From NCBI GenBank assembly GCA_900314495.1, contig OMVJ01000017.1, positions 1-50,523 on the forward strand: a stretch of 50,523 nt of DNA. Reading direction: 5' to 3'. Positions 4,110 to 48,858 of this stretch are shown piece by piece. A program made the position numbers and the translations under genes. Position 1 is the first letter of the stretch, and the number at the start of each line of letters is the position of its first letter. The DNA comes from an uncultured Olsenella sp. Lineage in GTDB: Bacteria > Actinomycetota > Coriobacteriia > Coriobacteriales > Atopobiaceae. The notes under the pieces were generated by a model, which was not told the DNA's origin, searched no databases, and saw nothing but the letters and a program-made list of their open reading frames with translations.

Positions 4110-4136
4110 TGACAGGGGGACGTTTCCCTTCTGTCA
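4110..4136. repeat. REP-like palindromic repeat, locus 2 (one unit)
   Basis: The unit has arms TGACAGGGGG and CCCTTCTGTCA around ACGTTT, between convergent genes. Its right end contains the stop codon (TCA on +, 4134-4136) of the esterase gene. Confidence 0.88.
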
Positions 4137-5309
4137 CACCTCCGGCACCATGCCCGGAAACTGCGCAAGCCAGTTGAGAAGCACCGTGCGGTTGATCTGC
4201 TGGTCGGTCCCGTGGTTGGAGTAGGGCAACTCCACCAGCGTCACGTTCGCGCCGCACTCGTCGGCCTGGCGCTTGTACTCCTCCGAGCCGTGCACGTCCA
4301 CCAGCGTGTCCTTCTCGCCGTGCAGGATGAGGACGGGTGGCAGGTCCGCGCCCATGTACGTGAGCGGCGAGACGAACTTCACGCGGTCCGGATACTCGCC
4401 CAGCTCGCCGCCGATGTAGGACTCGCAGATGCCGGGAATCTTCTCCGTGGTCATGTAGTGGGCGTTGTCCGCGGTCCATTGCAGATCCACCACGGGGTAC
4501 ATGGCGAGCACCGCCTGGGGCTCCGGCGCGTCCAGCTGCCCCGCGCTGGTCATGCCGGCATAGTGCAGCACGAGGTTGCCGCCCGCGGACTCGCCCGCCA
4601 AGATGATGTGGTCCGGGTCGCCGCCGTACTCGCGCGCATGGTCGTGAATCCAGTTCATGGCGTCGGCGCAGTCGTAGATAGCCTTGTCCCAGGTGGGGTT
4701 GCTGGTACCAGGGTAGGTGCACAGGCGGTAGTTGATGCTGAAGCCCACGTATCCGGCGTCAGCCATCTGCCGGTGCATGTTGGAGTTGGTGTCCGCGTCG
4801 TTTGAGCTCCAGCCGCCGCCGTGCATGTACACGTAGACCGGGCGCAGCTCGCCATCCGTAGCGCTTTCCGTCTGGTCGGGCTTGTAGATGGAAATGGTCA
4901 GGTCCTGGCCGTCGCGGTTGGCGTAGACGACCTGCTCGTCGGGCTCGCTCATCTGGACGTCCTTGAAGGTGAGGCTCTCCAGCAGGCTGTAGCTGCCTCC
5001 AGCGTCGCGTGCGACCATTTTGAAGTGAGCAGCCTCAACGCCCAGTACCGCAAACGCCACGACACTCGCCGCCAGCATCACGCGGAAGAAGCCCTTGCCG
5101 CCGTGCCCCTTGCGCACCACCAGCAGGCTGACGACGGCAGCCACCATCACAGCGATGAGCAGGAAGGGCAGAACCAAGGTAAAGAAGACCGTACAGAGCT
5201 GCGTGGTAATCCAGAAACGGTCGCCGAGGACACCGAGCCCGAAGAAGAGGCCGAGCAGAACAACGAGGCCGAAAAATATTCCCAAGAGCACGCGCAGAAC
5301 CTTCTTCAT
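4134..5309 (-). CDS. Alpha/beta hydrolase (HSL/BD-FAE-type esterase) with N-terminal membrane segments
   Basis: The 391-aa product starts with about three hydrophobic segments (residues 1-90), so the catalytic domain is probably tethered to the membrane. The hydrolase domain shows the oxyanion motif HGGGW, the nucleophile elbow GESAGG, and late Asp and His (EKDTLVD, YSNHGTDQ) completing the triad. This is the hormone-sensitive-lipase/carboxylesterase arrangement; the substrate cannot be predicted. AGGAGCAG precedes the ATG at 5309. The gene is divergent from the TetR/ABC operon, and its stop codon lies inside a repeat unit. Confidence 0.85.
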   Translation of the reverse strand: MKKVLRVLLGIFFGLVVLLGLFFGLGVLGDRFWITTQLCTVFFTLVLPFLLIAVMVAAVVSLLVVRKGHGGKGFFRVMLAASVVAFAVLGVEAAHFKMVARDAGGSYSLLESLTFKDVQMSEPDEQVVYANRDGQDLTISIYKPDQTESATDGELRPVYVYMHGGGWSSNDADTNSNMHRQMADAGYVGFSINYRLCTYPGTSNPTWDKAIYDCADAMNWIHDHAREYGGDPDHIILAGESAGGNLVLHYAGMTSAGQLDAPEPQAVLAMYPVVDLQWTADNAHYMTTEKIPGICESYIGGELGEYPDRVKFVSPLTYMGADLPPVLILHGEKDTLVDVHGSEEYKRQADECGANVTLVELPYSNHGTDQQINRTVLLNWLAQFPGMVPEV

Positions 5310-12402: not shown

Positions 12403-12480
12403 ATGACAAAGGGGGACGTTTCCCTTCTGACACACCGCCGGCTCGGTCGTGACAGTAGGGAAACGTCCCCATTTGTCACG
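12403..12480. repeat. REP-like palindromic repeat, locus 3 (head-to-head pair)
   Basis: Unit one (12403-12434) carries GGGGGACGTTTCCC and unit two (12449-12479) the opposite orientation, GGGAAACGTCCCC. The pair lies between the GTPase gene start and the end of the next gene. Confidence 0.9.
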
Positions 12481-13354: not shown

Positions 13355-13412
13355 GTGACAGAAGGGGACGTTTACCTTTTGACATGACAGAAGGGAAACG
13401 TCCCCTTCTAAA
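13355..13412. repeat. REP-like palindromic repeat, locus 4 (pair)
   Basis: Unit one (13355-13385) and an inverted second unit (13385-13409) share the TGACA at the junction. The second unit lacks its outer TGTCA end, being replaced by TAAAC just before the TetR stop. Confidence 0.85.
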
Positions 13413-14735: not shown

Positions 14736-14777
14736 GTGACAAGGGGGTGACAAAGGGGGACGTTTCCCTTCTGTCAC
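14736..14777. repeat. REP-like palindromic repeat, locus 5
   Basis: A full unit (14747-14777; arms GTGACAAAGGG and CCCTTCTGTCAC) preceded by a partial arm GTGACAAGGG at 14736-14745. It starts 4 bases after the upstream stop. Confidence 0.88.
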
Positions 14778-14875
14778 GCCGCCGATGCGATCAGTGCATC
14801 TCCGTCACGCCACATCATCCCGGCGGTCGGCTATTCTGGATGGAACTTACGCGACCACATGGCGAGGGAGGCCGC

Positions 14876-15634
14876 ATGCGCGAGACGATACTCTCTGAGC
14901 TTACCAAGCTGGACCAGACCAACAACGTGCAGGTCATCTATGCCGTTGAGTCCGGCAGCCGCGCCTGGGGCTTCGAGTCACCGGACAGCGACTACGACGT
15001 GCGGTTCATTTACGTGCGCCCACAGGACGACTACTTGCGCATAGATCGCGTCCGCGACGTCATCGACTGGCAGCCGGACCCCCTCTTCGATGCGACGGGC
15101 TGGGACCTCCCCAAGACGCTGCGACTCATGCGAAAGTCCAACCCATCGCTGTATGAATGGGCTGCGTCGCCCATCGTCTACCGCAGCACACCCACATGGG
15201 AGCTGCTGGGACCGATGCTAGACCGCTGCTTCTCCCCGCGCGCCATCGGCATGCACTACCTCTCCATGGCGCGGCGCAACCGGGAGGAGCACCTGCTGGC
15301 GCCAACGGTCAAGCTGAAGAAGTACCTTTACGTGCTGCGCCCCATCCTCGCCTGCCGCTGGCTTGTGGAGCGCGGAACCATGCCACCCGTGCGGTTCTCA
15401 GACCTCGTGGAGGCGGAGCTGCCGCAAGACCTGAAACCATCCGTGGATGACCTACTTGCACGCAAGCGCGCCGCAAACGAGGCTAAGCGCATCGAACACA
15501 TGCCAGACATTGACTCCTTCATCGAACGTGGTCTGGCGGATATGGACGGCAAGATTCGCGAGCTGCCCAAGGCTGAGGACGTGCCCTGGGAGGACTTGGA
15601 TGCGCTCTTCCGCGAGATTCTCCAACGAGGGTGA
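14876..15634 (+). CDS. Predicted nucleotidyltransferase (YcgL/RlaP family)
   Basis: The 252-aa product has the polymerase-beta-type nucleotidyltransferase motif GSRAWGFESPDSDYDVRF (about residues 24-41), with the two Asp that bind metal. The rest matches the family of large predicted nucleotidyltransferases (DUF2043/RlaP-like), sometimes linked to RNA repair. The ATG at 14876 follows GAGGGAGG. The stop codon TGA (15632-15634) is the beginning of the TGACA run that leads into the next repeat. A RAYT transposase gene follows. Confidence 0.78.
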   Translation: MRETILSELTKLDQTNNVQVIYAVESGSRAWGFESPDSDYDVRFIYVRPQDDYLRIDRVRDVIDWQPDPLFDATGWDLPKTLRLMRKSNPSLYEWAASPIVYRSTPTWELLGPMLDRCFSPRAIGMHYLSMARRNREEHLLAPTVKLKKYLYVLRPILACRWLVERGTMPPVRFSDLVEAELPQDLKPSVDDLLARKRAANEAKRIEHMPDIDSFIERGLADMDGKIRELPKAEDVPWEDLDALFREILQRG

Positions 15635-15635
15635 C

Positions 15636-15666
15636 ATGACAAAAGGGGACGTTTCCCTTTTGTCAT
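15636..15666. repeat. REP-like palindromic repeat, locus 6 (best-formed unit)
   Basis: This is the cleanest unit: perfect 12-base arms ATGACAAAAGGG and CCCTTTTGTCAT around a 7-base centre GACGTTT. It would fold as a stem-loop in either strand. It lies 77 bases upstream of the RAYT gene, which has a repeat pair on its other side as well. Confidence 0.93.
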
Positions 15667-15743
15667 GCATCGGGCCCTTGCGCGAGGACCCTGCGCTCGT
15701 CATACTGTCGCCACCATTGGGCGGCTGTTGGGGGGCGGTGCCT

Positions 15744-16508
15744 ATGCCACGAGGAGCGCGGAAGCAAAGCGAGTCGAGCATCTACCACGTGATGGTTCGC
15801 GGCGTCAATCAGATGCAGCTCTTCTACGACGACGAGGACCGAATCGTGTTCGTGGAGCGCATCAGGCGTTACAGGGACGAATGCGGCTTCAAGCTGTACG
15901 CATGGTGCCTCATGGACAACCACGTCCACCTGCTCATCGAAGTGGGTAACGTTGAGCTTGCCACCATAATGAAGAAGCTCCTGCTCAGCTACTCGCATTG
16001 GTTCAACAACAAGTACGACAGGTCGGGCTACCTTTACGAAGGCCGGTTTGTGAGCAAGGCGGTTGACGACGACCACTACCTGCTGGGTGCCGTCCGCTAC
16101 ATTCACCGCAACCCACTCGAGGTGGGTGGCAGCGTCGACACGTGGACGAGCTACCGGGATTACATGGGCTCGGATGGACCGGGGATTACCGACACTGGCC
16201 TTGTGCTCGGCATGCTCGCGGAAGACCCCGAACGCGCGCGGCTTGCGTTCCACGAACTGGTGACTGGCGAAGCCGAACCGTGCGACTACGACTTTGGAAA
16301 ACCGCGTGGGCAGATTCAGGAGGAGCAGGCCGCCAGCCTCATCAAGGAGATCGCCGGTGTCGAGAATTGCACGGACGTTTGCGCGTTGGATTCCGTGCGC
16401 AGGAGCGCCGCCATTGCCGAGATGCGGTCGAAGGGGCTGAGCATCCGACGCATATCCCGTCTGACCGGTCTCAGCCGAGGCGTCGTGGAGCGAGCCGGTT
16501 ACATGTAG
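15744..16508 (+). CDS. REP-associated tyrosine transposase (RAYT, Y1/HUH family)
   Basis: The 254-aa product is an IS200-like Y1 transposase of the RAYT branch. It has the HUH motif (DNHVHLL, His60 and His62), the GYLYEGRF stretch at about 95-102, and the likely catalytic tyrosine in RYIHRNP (Tyr119). After residue 200 there is a helix-turn-helix-like tail (GLSIRRISRLTGLSRGVVER). Known RAYTs nick and join REP palindromes as single-stranded DNA and are single-copy, domesticated genes. GGGGGCGG precedes the ATG at 15744. REP-like units flank it at 15636-15666 and 16521-16612, exactly the arrangement of REP/RAYT loci, so it probably acts on this repeat family. Confidence 0.92.
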   Translation: MPRGARKQSESSIYHVMVRGVNQMQLFYDDEDRIVFVERIRRYRDECGFKLYAWCLMDNHVHLLIEVGNVELATIMKKLLLSYSHWFNNKYDRSGYLYEGRFVSKAVDDDHYLLGAVRYIHRNPLEVGGSVDTWTSYRDYMGSDGPGITDTGLVLGMLAEDPERARLAFHELVTGEAEPCDYDFGKPRGQIQEEQAASLIKEIAGVENCTDVCALDSVRRSAAIAEMRSKGLSIRRISRLTGLSRGVVERAGYM

Positions 16509-16520
16509 GGTATCAAGAGG

Positions 16521-16612
16521 ATGTCAAAGGGGGACGTTTCTCTATTGACACGCGTGACGTGACAAAAGTGAAACGTCCCCCTGACACATCCCGCCCTGAC
16601 GCCCCTGACACG
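16521..16612. repeat. REP-like palindromic repeat, locus 7 (pair plus fragments)
   Basis: Unit one 16521-16551 and inverted unit two 16559-16587, followed by two short TGACGCC/TGACACGCC fragments. It lies 12 bases after the RAYT stop and ends at the stop of the convergent AAA gene. Confidence 0.9.
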
Positions 16613-18277: not shown

Positions 18278-18383
18278 GTGTCAAAGGGGGATGTCAAGAG
18301 GGGACGTTTCCCTTTTGTCACATCACGCGCGTCAATAGGGAAACGTCCCCTTTTGTCCCTTTTGCCATCCCCCTTTGTCACGT
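18278..18383. repeat. REP-like palindromic repeat, locus 8 (nested mosaic)
   Basis: Two inward-facing units (18291-18323 and 18331-18357) are enclosed by outer arms GTGTCAAAGGGGGATG (18279-18294) and CATCCCCCTTTGTCAC (18366-18381), complementary except for one base. This is a mosaic arrangement like the BIMEs of enterobacteria. Confidence 0.88.
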
Positions 18384-19394: not shown

Positions 19395-19544
19395 ATGTTC
19401 AACGCAATCGCCAACAAGACCACCAACACCAACGCCTTCAACCGCCTGCGCAACGCCCTCGCGTCCAAGCAGGGCAACAACGCCGAGGTCCAGGCTGCCA
19501 CCCGCACCGCCCTCGCGCGTCGCGGCCTGCTCACCCTGTACTAA
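19395..19544 (+). CDS. Unrecognised small protein 1 (49 aa)
   Basis: The product starts MFNAIANK and ends RRGLLTLY. Its last 35 residues match small protein 2 (20344-20484) at 29 positions (shared blocks FNRLRNA, NAEV, AATR, ALARRGLLTLY), while codons differ at many synonymous positions, which supports real coding. It is basic (many Arg/Lys), lacks Cys and has no clear signal peptide or membrane helix. GGGAGG precedes the ATG. It has its own promoter and a strong terminator. I do not recognise the family; a regulatory peptide, DNA/RNA-binding peptide or precursor of a secreted peptide are all possible. Confidence 0.8.
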   Translation: MFNAIANKTTNTNAFNRLRNALASKQGNNAEVQAATRTALARRGLLTLY

Positions 19545-19578
19545 GTCGTGCGTCGCGCCACGCGGCCAAGCAAACGAC

Positions 19579-19625
19579 AAGAGCCCCGATGGTCCGCACG
19601 ACCACCGGGGCTCCTCTTTTGTGTT
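19579..19625 (+). terminator. Rho-independent terminator of small-protein gene 1
   Basis: GAGCCCCG-A-TGGT (19581-19593) pairs with ACCA-C-CGGGGCTC (19601-19613) with one mismatch, then CTCTTTTGTGTT. A near-identical hairpin follows small-protein gene 2. Confidence 0.85.
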
Positions 19626-20343: not shown

Positions 20344-20484
20344 ATGAGCACTCAAAACAACAAGATCGCAAACTTCTTCAATCGTCTTCGCAACGCATTT
20401 GCTGGCAAGCAGAACAAGAACGCTGAGGTTGAGGCAGCCACTCGCGTTGCCCTCGCCCGTCGCGGCCTTCTCACCCTTTACTAA
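20344..20484 (+). CDS. Unrecognised small protein 2 (46 aa)
   Basis: Paralogue of the 49-aa protein 0.95 kb upstream; the N-terminus differs (MSTQNNKIAN) and the C-terminal 35 residues are 29/35 identical, ending in the same RRGLLTLY. GAGGT precedes the ATG with a short AT-rich spacer. Codon choice here is less GC-rich (CGT, CTT) than in paralogue 1, which may indicate high expression or older divergence. After the stop come a stem-loop (20494-20513) and a terminator. Function unknown. Confidence 0.8.
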   Translation: MSTQNNKIANFFNRLRNAFAGKQNKNAEVEAATRVALARRGLLTLY

Positions 20485-20513: not shown

Positions 20514-20525
20514 GATAAAACCTAC

Positions 20526-20570
20526 TGGAGCCCCGGCGGTCGCGCAGGCCACCGGGGCTCCTTCTTGTGT
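20526..20570 (+). terminator. Rho-independent terminator of small-protein gene 2
   Basis: GGAGCCCCGG (20527-20536) pairs with CCGGGGCTCC (20552-20561), followed by TTCTTGTGT. It matches the terminator of small-protein gene 1 in stem sequence. Confidence 0.82.
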
Positions 20571-20641
20571 CAGGGGGGTGTCAACGGGGACGTTTCCCTT
20601 TTGACACGCCTGACAAAAGGGAAACGTCCCCAAGTGACACG
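20571..20641. repeat. REP-like palindromic repeat, locus 9 (pair)
   Basis: Unit one 20578-20607 and inverted unit two 20611-20641, between the terminator of small-protein gene 2 and the stop of the convergent HAD gene, which begins 2 bases later. Confidence 0.9.
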
Positions 20642-21604: not shown

Positions 21605-21637
21605 GTGTGTCAGGGGGACGTTTGCCATTCGACACAC
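21605..21637. repeat. REP-like palindromic repeat, locus 10 (degenerate unit)
   Basis: GTGTGTCAGGGGG and CCATTCGACACAC arms around ACGTTTG, with several mismatches. It is in a divergent promoter region, just before the ribosome site of the next + strand gene. Confidence 0.75.
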
Positions 21638-30208: not shown

Positions 30209-30469
30209 GGCGTCCGTTCCTTGCCCACCGTCCGCAAGCACCCAACCGCCTGTCATAGTGCGCATTCCATAGAGTGTGCGCGCCTAAGTGCCAATAGTGC
30301 GCACGTGGTGACCCTGACGTGCTACAACTCCAGTTGGCAGTGTGTACATTCCAACCGCATGCACACTTCCGCCCTCCTTTAGCGCACGTTCCATGGAATG
30401 CGCGCGACCTGCCGCCAAGAACAGCGACGCAGTTCCGAAGCGCCTGCTTTCCTCCTGGTACGCGAAAAC

Positions 30470-30577
30470 GGCACCCCCAAATCCGTCCCTATAAGTCCGT
30501 ATCATCAACTATGGAACTAGATTTATCTGGGCTTTTGTGGGGGACATCAAAGTTATAGGGACGGATTTGGGGGTGCC
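30470..30577. repeat. Inverted-repeat element with 25-bp perfect arms
   Basis: The left arm begins GGCACCCCCAAATCCGTCCC and ends TATAA; the right arm (30553-30577) is its exact complement. They enclose 58 AT-richer bases without coding capacity. The sequence is unrelated to the dispersed REP-like units. It looks like a miniature inverted-repeat element. Confidence 0.7.
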
Positions 30578-30869
30578 GCTGGTGCGTACGGGCGGTTCCG
30601 CGCCCCGCAAACGCGCAGGTAGAGGCCCATGGATTCTGGGTGCCATCCCGCACTGTGGGGAAATGTCACCGGAATCCATGGGCATCTAGCTGGGGCTTTG
30701 CGTGTGCCCGTGCGCCACCGTGGCAATACGGCACGCCACCGATGGCACGTGCCAGGCCGTCTAGCTGGGCAAATTCACCAGAGGCGTTCTGAGCCCCGTT
30801 GCCGCTTCGGGCGGGCCTTGACCCCACCTGCCCCCGGAGCGGCCGTACAGCGCCTTCTGGTGAGGCCGC

Positions 30870-38800: not shown

Positions 38801-38882
38801 GTGTGCCAGGGGGACGTTTCCCGTTTGACACGCCCGTTTGTGCCTGTTTGCGTGTCAAACGGGAAACGTCCCCTATTGACAC
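38801..38882. repeat. REP-like palindromic repeat, locus 11 (pair)
   Basis: Unit one 38801-38832 and inverted unit two 38851-38882; both carry the variant CCCGTTTGACAC / GTGTCAAACGGG arm. The right unit overlaps the 3' end of the acetyltransferase gene. Confidence 0.9.
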
Positions 38883-39958
38883 ACCAGCTTCTCGAAGGCG
38901 ACCCGTTCGCGCGTGCCCTCCGCGCCTGGCTCCAGCAGAATGATGCCGCATTCCGTGTAGCCCAGCCGCCGCATGAGGGTCCGCATGCGGATGTTGCCCT
39001 GGTGCGTGTCTATGCGCACGCTCGTCCTGCCCAGCTCCCTCGCCCGACCCTCCGCAAAGGCGAGCAAGGCCTTGGCCATGCCGCGGTGCGCGTGGTCTGC
39101 CGCCGTCGCAATGCGATGAACCACCAGGTAGTTGGGGTTGGACGAGTCGCTCCCAGTCAGCCAGGCTCCGTCGATGCTGTCGTAGGTGGGCTCTCCCCCA
39201 GCGCCAATCATGGCCACCCCGCCAATACCCTCCGCGTCGGCAACGACGAAGGTCTCTCCGCGGGCAACGTCCGCCTCAATCATGTCGCGCCTTGGCTGGC
39301 CGTTCTGCCACTGGTCAATGCCGAGCGCCGCGAGCGCCCGCCGACCGTCGGCGTATATCTCCATGAGGCGGCCCATCTCGCTGGCGACCGCAGGCCGAAT
39401 CTGGAAGGGCTGGCAGGTAGCCCCTTGAACACCGTGCAGGTGCAGCTCGTACGAGGGGTGCATCAACCCGGTGGGCGCGTAGTACTCGGTTCCAATGGCG
39501 CTAAAGCCAAGCTTACCCAGCACATGCCCTGACCTGCTATTCATTGGGTGGTGACCCGCGAACAACACATCTGCGTCCAGGTTCTGCGCGGCAAACCGAA
39601 CCACCCGCGCCGCAGCCTCGGACGCGTAGCCCCTTCCCCAGAACTCTGGCAGCAGGTGAAAGCCAAGCTCGTACTCGCCAGCCTTGCGCGGGTGCAGCCC
39701 GCAACACCCCACAAAGGTGCCCGTCTCGCGCTCGAACAGCGGCCAGTACTGGACGCCGCAGTGCTCCTGCAGCCCAATCTCAAGGGCGAGCCGCTTGGCA
39801 ATTTCCTCCCCCGTGAAGGTTCCGGTCGCGCAAATGTACCTCGTGACCTGCGGGTTTCCCCAAAGCGACCGCGCCAGACCCAGGTCATCCTGCGTCCAGA
39901 AGGAAAACCGCAGCCTGTCGCTCTCCATGAGCCAATTCTGCCCGTCCGCCTGTGCCAT
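38873..39958 (-). CDS. Tandem GNAT acetyltransferase fusion
   Basis: The 361-aa product joins two GNAT domains. The first (about 10-170) is RimJ/RimL-like (DRLRFSFWTQDDL, FVGCCGLHP, ELGFHLLPEFWGRGYASEA). The second (about 185-355) has VHRIATAADHAHRGMAKALLAFAEGRA, the acetyl-CoA site of a general GNAT. Substrates are unknown. GGAAGG at 7 bases favours the ATG at 39958; ATGs at 39964 and 39994 also exist. The last codons and the TAG stop (38873-38875) fall in a repeat unit, so the C-terminal residues VCQ appear to derive from it. Confidence 0.82.
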   Translation of the reverse strand: MAQADGQNWLMESDRLRFSFWTQDDLGLARSLWGNPQVTRYICATGTFTGEEIAKRLALEIGLQEHCGVQYWPLFERETGTFVGCCGLHPRKAGEYELGFHLLPEFWGRGYASEAAARVVRFAAQNLDADVLFAGHHPMNSRSGHVLGKLGFSAIGTEYYAPTGLMHPSYELHLHGVQGATCQPFQIRPAVASEMGRLMEIYADGRRALAALGIDQWQNGQPRRDMIEADVARGETFVVADAEGIGGVAMIGAGGEPTYDSIDGAWLTGSDSSNPNYLVVHRIATAADHAHRGMAKALLAFAEGRARELGRTSVRIDTHQGNIRMRTLMRRLGYTECGIILLEPGAEGTRERVAFEKLVCQ

Positions 39959-44827: not shown

Positions 44828-44896
44828 TGACAAAGGAGGCCAAAGGGGGACGTTTCTCTTTTGTCATGTGTCAAAAGAGAAACGTCCCCCTTGGCC
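44828..44896. repeat. REP-like palindromic repeat, locus 12 (long head-to-head pair)
   Basis: Two units in opposite orientation form a stem of about 26 bases: GGCCAAAGGGGGACGTTTCT and onward (44839-) against the complement ending GGCC at 44896, around TCATGTG. It lies in a divergent promoter region, unlike most others. Confidence 0.9.
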
Positions 44897-45661: not shown

Positions 45662-45695
45662 CGTGACAAAGGGGGACGTTTCCCTCATATGACAT
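45662..45695. repeat. REP-like palindromic repeat, locus 13 (one degenerate unit)
   Basis: Left arm CGTGACAAAGGGGG and centre ACGTTTCCC are kept; the right arm is CTCATATGACA instead of TTTTGTCA. It fills the gap between two convergent genes. Confidence 0.85.
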
Positions 45696-47872: not shown

Positions 47873-47944
47873 CGTGTCAAAGGGGGACGTTTCTCTTTTG
47901 TCGTGACAATTGGGAAACGTCCCCTTTTGTCACCCCTTTTGTCA
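47873..47944. repeat. REP-like palindromic repeat, locus 14 (pair)
   Basis: Unit one 47874-47902 and inverted unit two 47903-47933, followed by CCCCTTTTGTCA, which contains the stop codon (47942-47944) of the glycosylase gene. Between convergent genes. Confidence 0.9.
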
Positions 47945-48550: not shown

Positions 48551-48858
48551 GATTCTCGCTCCCAAGAAGATGCGCCTGTAGCAAAGCGCTCGGTTTTCTC
48601 GCTACACCCTAGCGCATTGCGATAGCCATAATCAATCCGCCGTTTGGATCATTACGTTCGTTCAATAATTGATTACGTGCATCTGCTAGCTAGAGATGCC
48701 ATTTTCCGCCCTCTAGCTCGCATTTCAACGTAATCAATTCTTTGCCGAACGTAACGATTGCGGCACATCGACGTAACGGTCACTTCAACGTAACGATTGC
48801 GGCACATCGGCGGATTGATCGCAAGACACCAACGCGCTGCCCGCGGCCGTCCATTCCG
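48551..48858. other. Non-coding region with nested repeats
   Basis: I see no gene. ATCAATCCGCCG (48631-48642) is repeated inverted at 48808-48819; inside, AATTGATTACGT (48667-48678) is repeated inverted at 48728-48739, and a 23-base direct repeat AACGTAACGATTGCGGCACA(TCG) occurs at 48748 and 48787. ACGTAA occurs six times in both orientations. It may be an element of about 190 bp or a cluster of protein-binding sites. Confidence 0.6.

Follow-up and report, generated by a model that had tools for sequence, protein, structure and literature searches.

A REP/RAYT-like locus with palindromic, locus-specific repeats in an uncultured Olsenella sp.

The stretch of DNA considered here, referred to below as the window (50,523 nt), comes from an uncultured Olsenella sp., a gut-type actinobacterium, and carries a gene for a Y1/HUH protein with palindromic repeats on both sides. 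A preliminary description took this to be a complete REP/RAYT locus, and the question is whether it is one, and if so how it stands in relation to the known REP/RAYT systems. Our answer is that the locus is REP/RAYT-like in the broad sense and not of the GTAG type. Three features of the broad sense are present, namely the Y1/HUH catalytic residues, an abundant intergenic palindrome that also flanks the gene, and one repeat family for each enzyme. The description stands as regards the association, which is repeated in a comparison of 207 loci and for a second RAYT, but not in the established GTAG sense, as the protein scores 60.7 bits with NCBIfam NF047646 (REP_Tyr_transpos), for which the curated cut-off is 80, and fits group 1.

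The Y1/HUH protein and known systems

The gene (15744-16508, forward strand) is preceded by that for an RlaP-type nucleotidyltransferase and followed by that for an AAA-ATPase_like/PDDEXK_9 protein, and encodes a protein of 254 aa, P0001. The alignment of homologs begins at the ATG at 15744; an open reading frame taken from the first ATG would open at 15447. P0001 matches Pfam Y1_Tnp (E 9e-15), and a profile built from 50 homologs finds the E. coli TnpAREP chain 4er8 in the PDB (E 7e-9); phmmer with P0001 alone gave chance-level matches only against the PDB, and it is the alignment profile that recovers 4er8. The AlphaFold2 model (pLDDT 92.2) has the same structure, TnpAREP bound to a REP hairpin, as its best Foldseek match. 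The HUH motif is H60-V61-H62 (codons at 15921-15929) and the candidate catalytic residue is Tyr119 (16098-16100), as first described, and neither an alignment of 12 homologs nor one of 50 shows any variation at H60, H62 or Tyr119. The catalytic-site motifs are NHVH and YIHRNP, together with FQ in most homologs and YE in P0001 itself.

The helix-turn-helix-like tail of the preliminary description is also predicted by AlphaFold2, which gives a confident five-helix arrangement including an HTH for residues 193-250 (16320-16493, forward strand), with pLDDT above 90 in most blocks. Pfam models HTH_38 and HTH_23 match the tail below threshold. Its structural neighbours are ParB, DnaA domain IV and resolvase HTHs, with a best Z of 6.5 that is under the trust level, and as these matches are weak we take from them the type of fold, with no claim for a specific HTH family.

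Judged by motifs and length and not by the HMM of the original authors, P0001 fits TnpA-Y1 subclass 2.1, which is RAYT group 1 and largely the 'TIRYT' proteins of Di Nocera. Subclass 2.1 has the core motifs NHVH, FQ or W[EQ], and a Y[IV]HLNP-like sequence, with a median length of 238 aa (PMC6006769), and the subclass 2.1/TIRYT proteins have a C-terminal HTH-like extension and a length near 240-250 aa, and occur in a broad range of phyla (PMC6006769, PMC3733652). P0001 resembles them in length, in NHVH and Y[IV]HxNP, and in the HTH-like extension. As an HTH tail has already been described for subclass 2.1, it is a trait of the whole subclass and not peculiar to P0001. The earlier suggestion of an added tail that may alter recognition holds otherwise.

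The repeats of this subclass have been less clear. The 2018 survey found no REP-like sequences for subclass 2.1 by automatic or manual searches (PMC6006769), and Di Nocera in 2013 reported GGGGWSAS (GGGG[AT][CG]A[CG]) in the flanking inverted repeats of some members, and also some repeated families (PMC3733652). At the P0001 locus there are inverted repeats, and the GGGGAC part of that motif matches, but the next base is G and not A, and the core is GGGGACG(T/G) and not exactly GGGGWSAS; GGGGACAG is found at other loci. In contrast to the published picture of subclass 2.1, the repeats described here are palindromic, genome-wide, dimeric and locus-specific.

The canonical GTAG RAYTs (TnpAREP of E. 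coli, 4er8; groups 2 and 3) share with this system the HUH/Y1 fold, REPs near the gene, one enzyme for each type of REP, REPIN-like dimers and a low gene copy number. However the repeats here are without the GT[AG]G foot and have a constant motif between the arms, and the protein has an added HTH domain and falls below the NCBIfam cut-off given above. The CGTC REPs (PMC3733652) are alike in that the reverse complement of our core contains CGTC and in the predominance of one inverted dimer type, but their motif is an unpaired terminal tag and they have no transposase, whereas the system here has GACG between its arms and comes with a RAYT. The TnpA proteins of IS200/IS605 have the same HUH single-tyrosine fold but a Y---Q motif, in contrast to Y---NP here (YIHRNP, class 2), and our system has one gene with many gene-less units, and the HTH tail. 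Nothing relevant came from literature searches on the motif strings or on RAYT repeats in Coriobacteriia and Bacillota. The kind of system is thus known in outline, and what is new relative to the literature examined is that the palindromic plan is consistent, that the arms are specific to the locus and that the tail is linked to them, although Bertels et al. 2017, who define the RAYT groups, may have an earlier report.

Repeat family 1 in the window and the genome

The unit upstream of the gene (15636-15666, forward strand) begins 2 bases past the stop codon of the RlaP-like gene, has perfect arms, and is predicted to form a 13-bp hairpin (-11.7 kcal/mol, z -7.1). Downstream there is a convergent pair, with the first unit at 16522-16550 on the forward strand and the second, inverted, at 16560-16589 on the reverse strand, and 16522-16589 is predicted to fold as one long hairpin (z -7.7). 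The bracketing of the gene by a well-formed unit and a pair is as previously described.

These units belong to what we call family 1, for which 114 genome copies give the consensus YRTGWCAaarGGGGACGTTTCCCTTTTGWCAYR, with conservation dropping off one to four bases beyond the arms. The 2.8 Mb genome has 128 exact GGGGACGTTTCYC 13-mers (63 on the forward strand and 65 on the reverse), the reversed pattern giving 0/1, and 139 matches (71 and 68) to core plus right arm with at most one mismatch, for which the control gave 0. The family thus has about 140 copies in the genome. The absence of a GTAG-type tetranucleotide, noted in the preliminary description, holds for the family, with GTRG next to the foot in 5.1% of units and in 3.1% of neighbouring control positions.

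Within the window there are 22 units with the core GGGACGTTT, all of them intergenic where the coding fraction is 0.78 (by a simple gene caller), and many units are directly downstream of genes. The window is enriched: at the rate seen elsewhere in the genome it should hold 2.0 exact copies, and it holds 19 (P 7e-13). Apart from those at the RAYT gene, single units are at 1268-1299, 4111-4141, 14746-14778, 21606-21636 (more diverged) and 45664-45695 (with a degenerate right arm), all on the forward strand, and convergent pairs are at 12403-12480, 13355-13412 (the outer arm of the second unit degenerate), 18290-18360, 20577-20641 (a single-hairpin fold, z -7.7), 38802-38884, 44838-44894 and 47874-47936. 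Predicted single-strand folding is strong for many family 1 units, while some, such as that at 1270-1298, fold poorly as a single hairpin.

The dimers have a fixed orientation. Among the listed places with two family 1 units less than 150 bp apart, 16 pairs are convergent, none divergent and 3 on the same strand, and every close pair in opposite orientation is convergent, which is REPIN-like. The REPIN arrangement of two inverted units in one fixed orientation with a short variable spacer is therefore present, the spacers being seen to differ among the dimers of a second family discussed below. The central W-W of the TGWCA arms, considered as possible evidence for the hairpin, does not covary within the source genome (45 of 87 complementary, 41.4 expected), and so the central arm pair is unconstrained there and free to mismatch.

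A second dense cluster of family 1, remote from the RAYT gene, is on contig C21 of the source genome (109991-119789, L080), with ten exact cores in about 10 kb, of which eight share a strand. The window has other repeats also. A 37-nt inverted repeat (30458-30494 and 30553-30589, 89% complementary with 58 nt between the arms) contains GGGACGGATTTGGGGGTGCC and is perhaps a miniature element of another kind whose core is related. There is a 48-nt imperfect inverted repeat (48648-48695 and 48711-48758) with a 15-nt loop, AT-rich against a GC-rich background. A 129-nt direct repeat of 75% identity (19416-19544 and 20356-20484) has at a similar distance after each copy a GGAGCCCC...GGGGCTCC hairpin (19572-19615 and 20519-20562), and the arrangement looks like the duplication of a short gene or a regulatory leader.

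Pairing of protein and repeat across loci

The source genome has two Y1 genes only. The second, whose product is 37% identical to P0001, is flanked by ATGAGACAAGGGGACGCACCTTTTGTCTCAT, and the core of this family 2 occurs 57 times in the source genome and not at all in the other 139 genomes of the family. Its close pairs are again convergent (7, with 0 divergent), and 7 of 28 listed places begin a convergent dimer; the five dimers that we read are near-identical, of about 65 nt each, and differ in their spacers and flanks. In another genus the RAYT of G006, 70% identical to P0001, has the core GGGGACGGTTCTCTCG, with 35 copies in G006 and none in the source genome, and the RAYTs of G006, G042 and G082 have each their separate flanking units.

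The preliminary description would have counted against it the finding of many repeats in relatives without the RAYT, and on this point the relatives are divided. The intact RAYTs examined in the source genome (G000), G042 and G082 have matching units on their flanks. G082 has 16 core copies, and in the five examined the GGGGACGTTTCCC core lies within GAGCCA/TGGCTC arms, so that identity of the core alone is not sufficient. On the other side, G035 (assembly 88% complete) has 36 copies of the GGGGACGTTTCYC core and only a distant Y1 protein with its catalytic residues ruined (L205, contig C29), which fits loss of the enzyme but also a repeat that is independent of it. That protein has DSVH for NHVH and RNIH for RYIH (Tyr to Asn) in a long reading frame that is intact, and is possibly a domesticated or dying RAYT.

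The wider comparison covered 207 homologous loci; where a host is named it belongs to Bacillota or Coriobacteriia, apart from a few other labels. For each locus we took the best repeat common to both flanks, without use of a motif and with a threshold of >35 bits, and mismatched flanks served as control. A locus-specific repeat was found on both flanks at 170 of 207 loci, with 4 of 207 for the mismatched controls, and is inverted in 144 of the 170. GGGAC/GGGGTC is present in 146 of these 170 repeats, as against 17% of random segments of the same length. Most loci have the same plan, with a constant GGGGAC(G) core surrounded by self-complementary arms that vary by locus, and the core itself has the variants GGGGACG, GGGGACAG and GGGGTCG. 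Bacillota units have GGGGACGGTTC in common and very different arms, for example TTGTCA..TGACAA, GGAAGCA..TGCTTCC and TAATCA..TGATTA. The arms compensate each other within a locus. In a test that was anchored on the core, as the flank comparison was not, the mean stem is 5.3 bp and 51% have 6 bp or more, whereas with right arms swapped between loci the mean is 3.06 bp and 4.7% have 6 bp or more, and the true value was never reached in 500 shuffles.

Two further observations concern individual loci. Homologous RAYTs at L048 (G079) and L114 (G006) have flanking palindromes without the GGGGAC core, such as TGACAATTCTCCTCGTAGGACTTTTGTCA in L048, which indicates that in some branches the core changes too. 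On contig C28 of G042 (L208) a RAYT has short tandem arrays of units on both sides (GAGACA..GGGACGGAGC..TGTCTC), with a 30-nt period and 2-3 copies in each array.

Comparison of repeat with RAYT across relatives had been proposed, and it was found that arm similarity follows protein similarity (Mantel 0/500). The arm sequence tracks the HTH tail no less closely than it does the catalytic core. For the C-terminal segment the partial correlation with the arms is 0.22 when the HUH core is controlled for (0/500), and the reverse control gives 0.14 for the HUH core (1/500). The strongest of 7161 tests of residue class against arm base is for residue 245, which in P0001 is Arg245 (codon at 16476-16478, forward strand), the first residue of the predicted recognition helix and a candidate reader of arm base -2. 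Among 110 anchored units, Lys or Arg at 245 goes with G at -2 in 58 of 70 loci, as against 2 of 40 otherwise, and the P0001 locus combines R245 with G at -2. In 43 loci outside the first set the figures are 23 of 32 and 1 of 11 (p 4e-4 by Fisher tests, which ignore relatedness). On a tree built without the tail there are 5 well-supported independent contrasts for residue 245, on average 4.4 concordant and 0.0 discordant (median p 0.125), and the tree-corrected support for the link is suggestive only. Positions 81-93, in the helix after the HUH motif, are also high-ranking, and the corresponding DNA-binding helix of TnpAREP contacts the REP stem and bulge (PMC8266576), so both domains may contribute.

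Explanations for the locus

The explanation that we think probable makes the locus a REPtron-like unit of RAYT group 1/subclass 2.1, with the single-copy HUH protein as the dedicated trans-acting enzyme of the approximately 140 palindromic units and the HTH reading their arms. A unit would consist of the constant GGGGAC(G) core with variable self-complementary arms around it. The HUH domain would handle the core region, Tyr119 nicking the strand, and the C-terminal HTH would read the arms, with Arg245 directed to the G of RTG-W-CA. It is chiefly as convergent pairs (REPINs) that the units would spread, travelling as single-stranded hairpins, and single units would be remnants. Specificity could then shift one arm at a time under an unchanged catalytic plan. 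We infer the binding to a folded single strand, the nicking by Tyr119 and the movement of dimers from the biochemistry of the TnpAREP HUH domain (PMC8266576) and general knowledge of Y1 enzymes, and the constancy of the GGGGAC(G) core suggests that it is the counterpart of GTAG. Genomes of the same genus have at this locus mostly short matches of 65-76% identity without synteny, and are too diverged for an empty-site comparison. A broader proposal, to which we give slightly less than even weight, is that the enzymes of RAYT group 1, a large class, are two-headed HUH proteins, in which the catalytic domain recognises the GGGGAC(G) core and the C-terminal HTH reads the stem arms by a simple code of residue and base, K/R245 going with G at -2.

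The nearest alternative in mechanism keeps the pairing of protein and repeat, and differs from the preferred explanation in the form of the DNA that is bound. The HTH could bind the unit as an ordinary double-stranded palindrome, as a dimer or autoregulator, with the hairpin irrelevant. The arms do resemble short inverted half-sites covarying with the HTH, and the W-W pair does not covary within the genome, but the HUH relatives with solved structures (4er8, 2vjv, 2xm3) bind single-stranded hairpins, the core is one-sided and asymmetric, and many units have strong predicted single-strand folds, and we think duplex binding unlikely. It is quite unlikely that we have an ordinary self-mobilising insertion sequence with no domesticated enzyme, which would end in the flanking units as terminal inverted repeats and have left the scattered units behind as MITE-like remains of earlier copies. 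Such an element could account for the inverted orientation of most flank repeats (144/170), for dispersed intergenic units and for the several RAYTs per genome in relatives. However the genome has just the two Y1 genes, 37% identical and each with a different repeat, for about 140 and 57 units respectively, the unit that looks mobile is the convergent dimer and not a gene with its ends, and the tyrosine motif is YIHRNP (class 2) and not the Y---Q of IS200/IS605.

The repeats might also be kept by some other activity or function, as terminators or as nucleoid or topoisomerase sites, the RAYT being a relic or an inserted bystander. Many units are just 3' of genes, and G035 retains many cores with only its catalytically ruined Y1 protein. 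We nevertheless consider this very unlikely, given that the unit matches the RAYT locus by locus (170/207), that homologs conserve the HUH, Tyr and tail residues, and that the two families of the source genome each match their own RAYT. That the RAYT is by chance in a repeat-rich stretch is scarcely credible, as although units cluster elsewhere too, with the ten copies on contig C21, the window has 19 copies where 2.0 are expected and the same association recurs at most of the 207 loci, a comparison strongly opposed to coincidence.

RAYT group 1/subclass 2.1, one of the largest RAYT classes, was scored as REP-less in the 2018 survey (PMC6006769). If our results hold it has a partner repeat after all, one that carries its constant motif between variable arms and not at the foot, and Coriobacteriia and Bacillota would be added to the systems available for study of REPINs. 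Changes of partner between a domesticated transposase and its intragenomic repeat population would also come under a residue-to-base rule that can be tested. The residue-base code, if true, would explain how many mutually exclusive REPIN families, several per genome, can exist on one enzyme plan.
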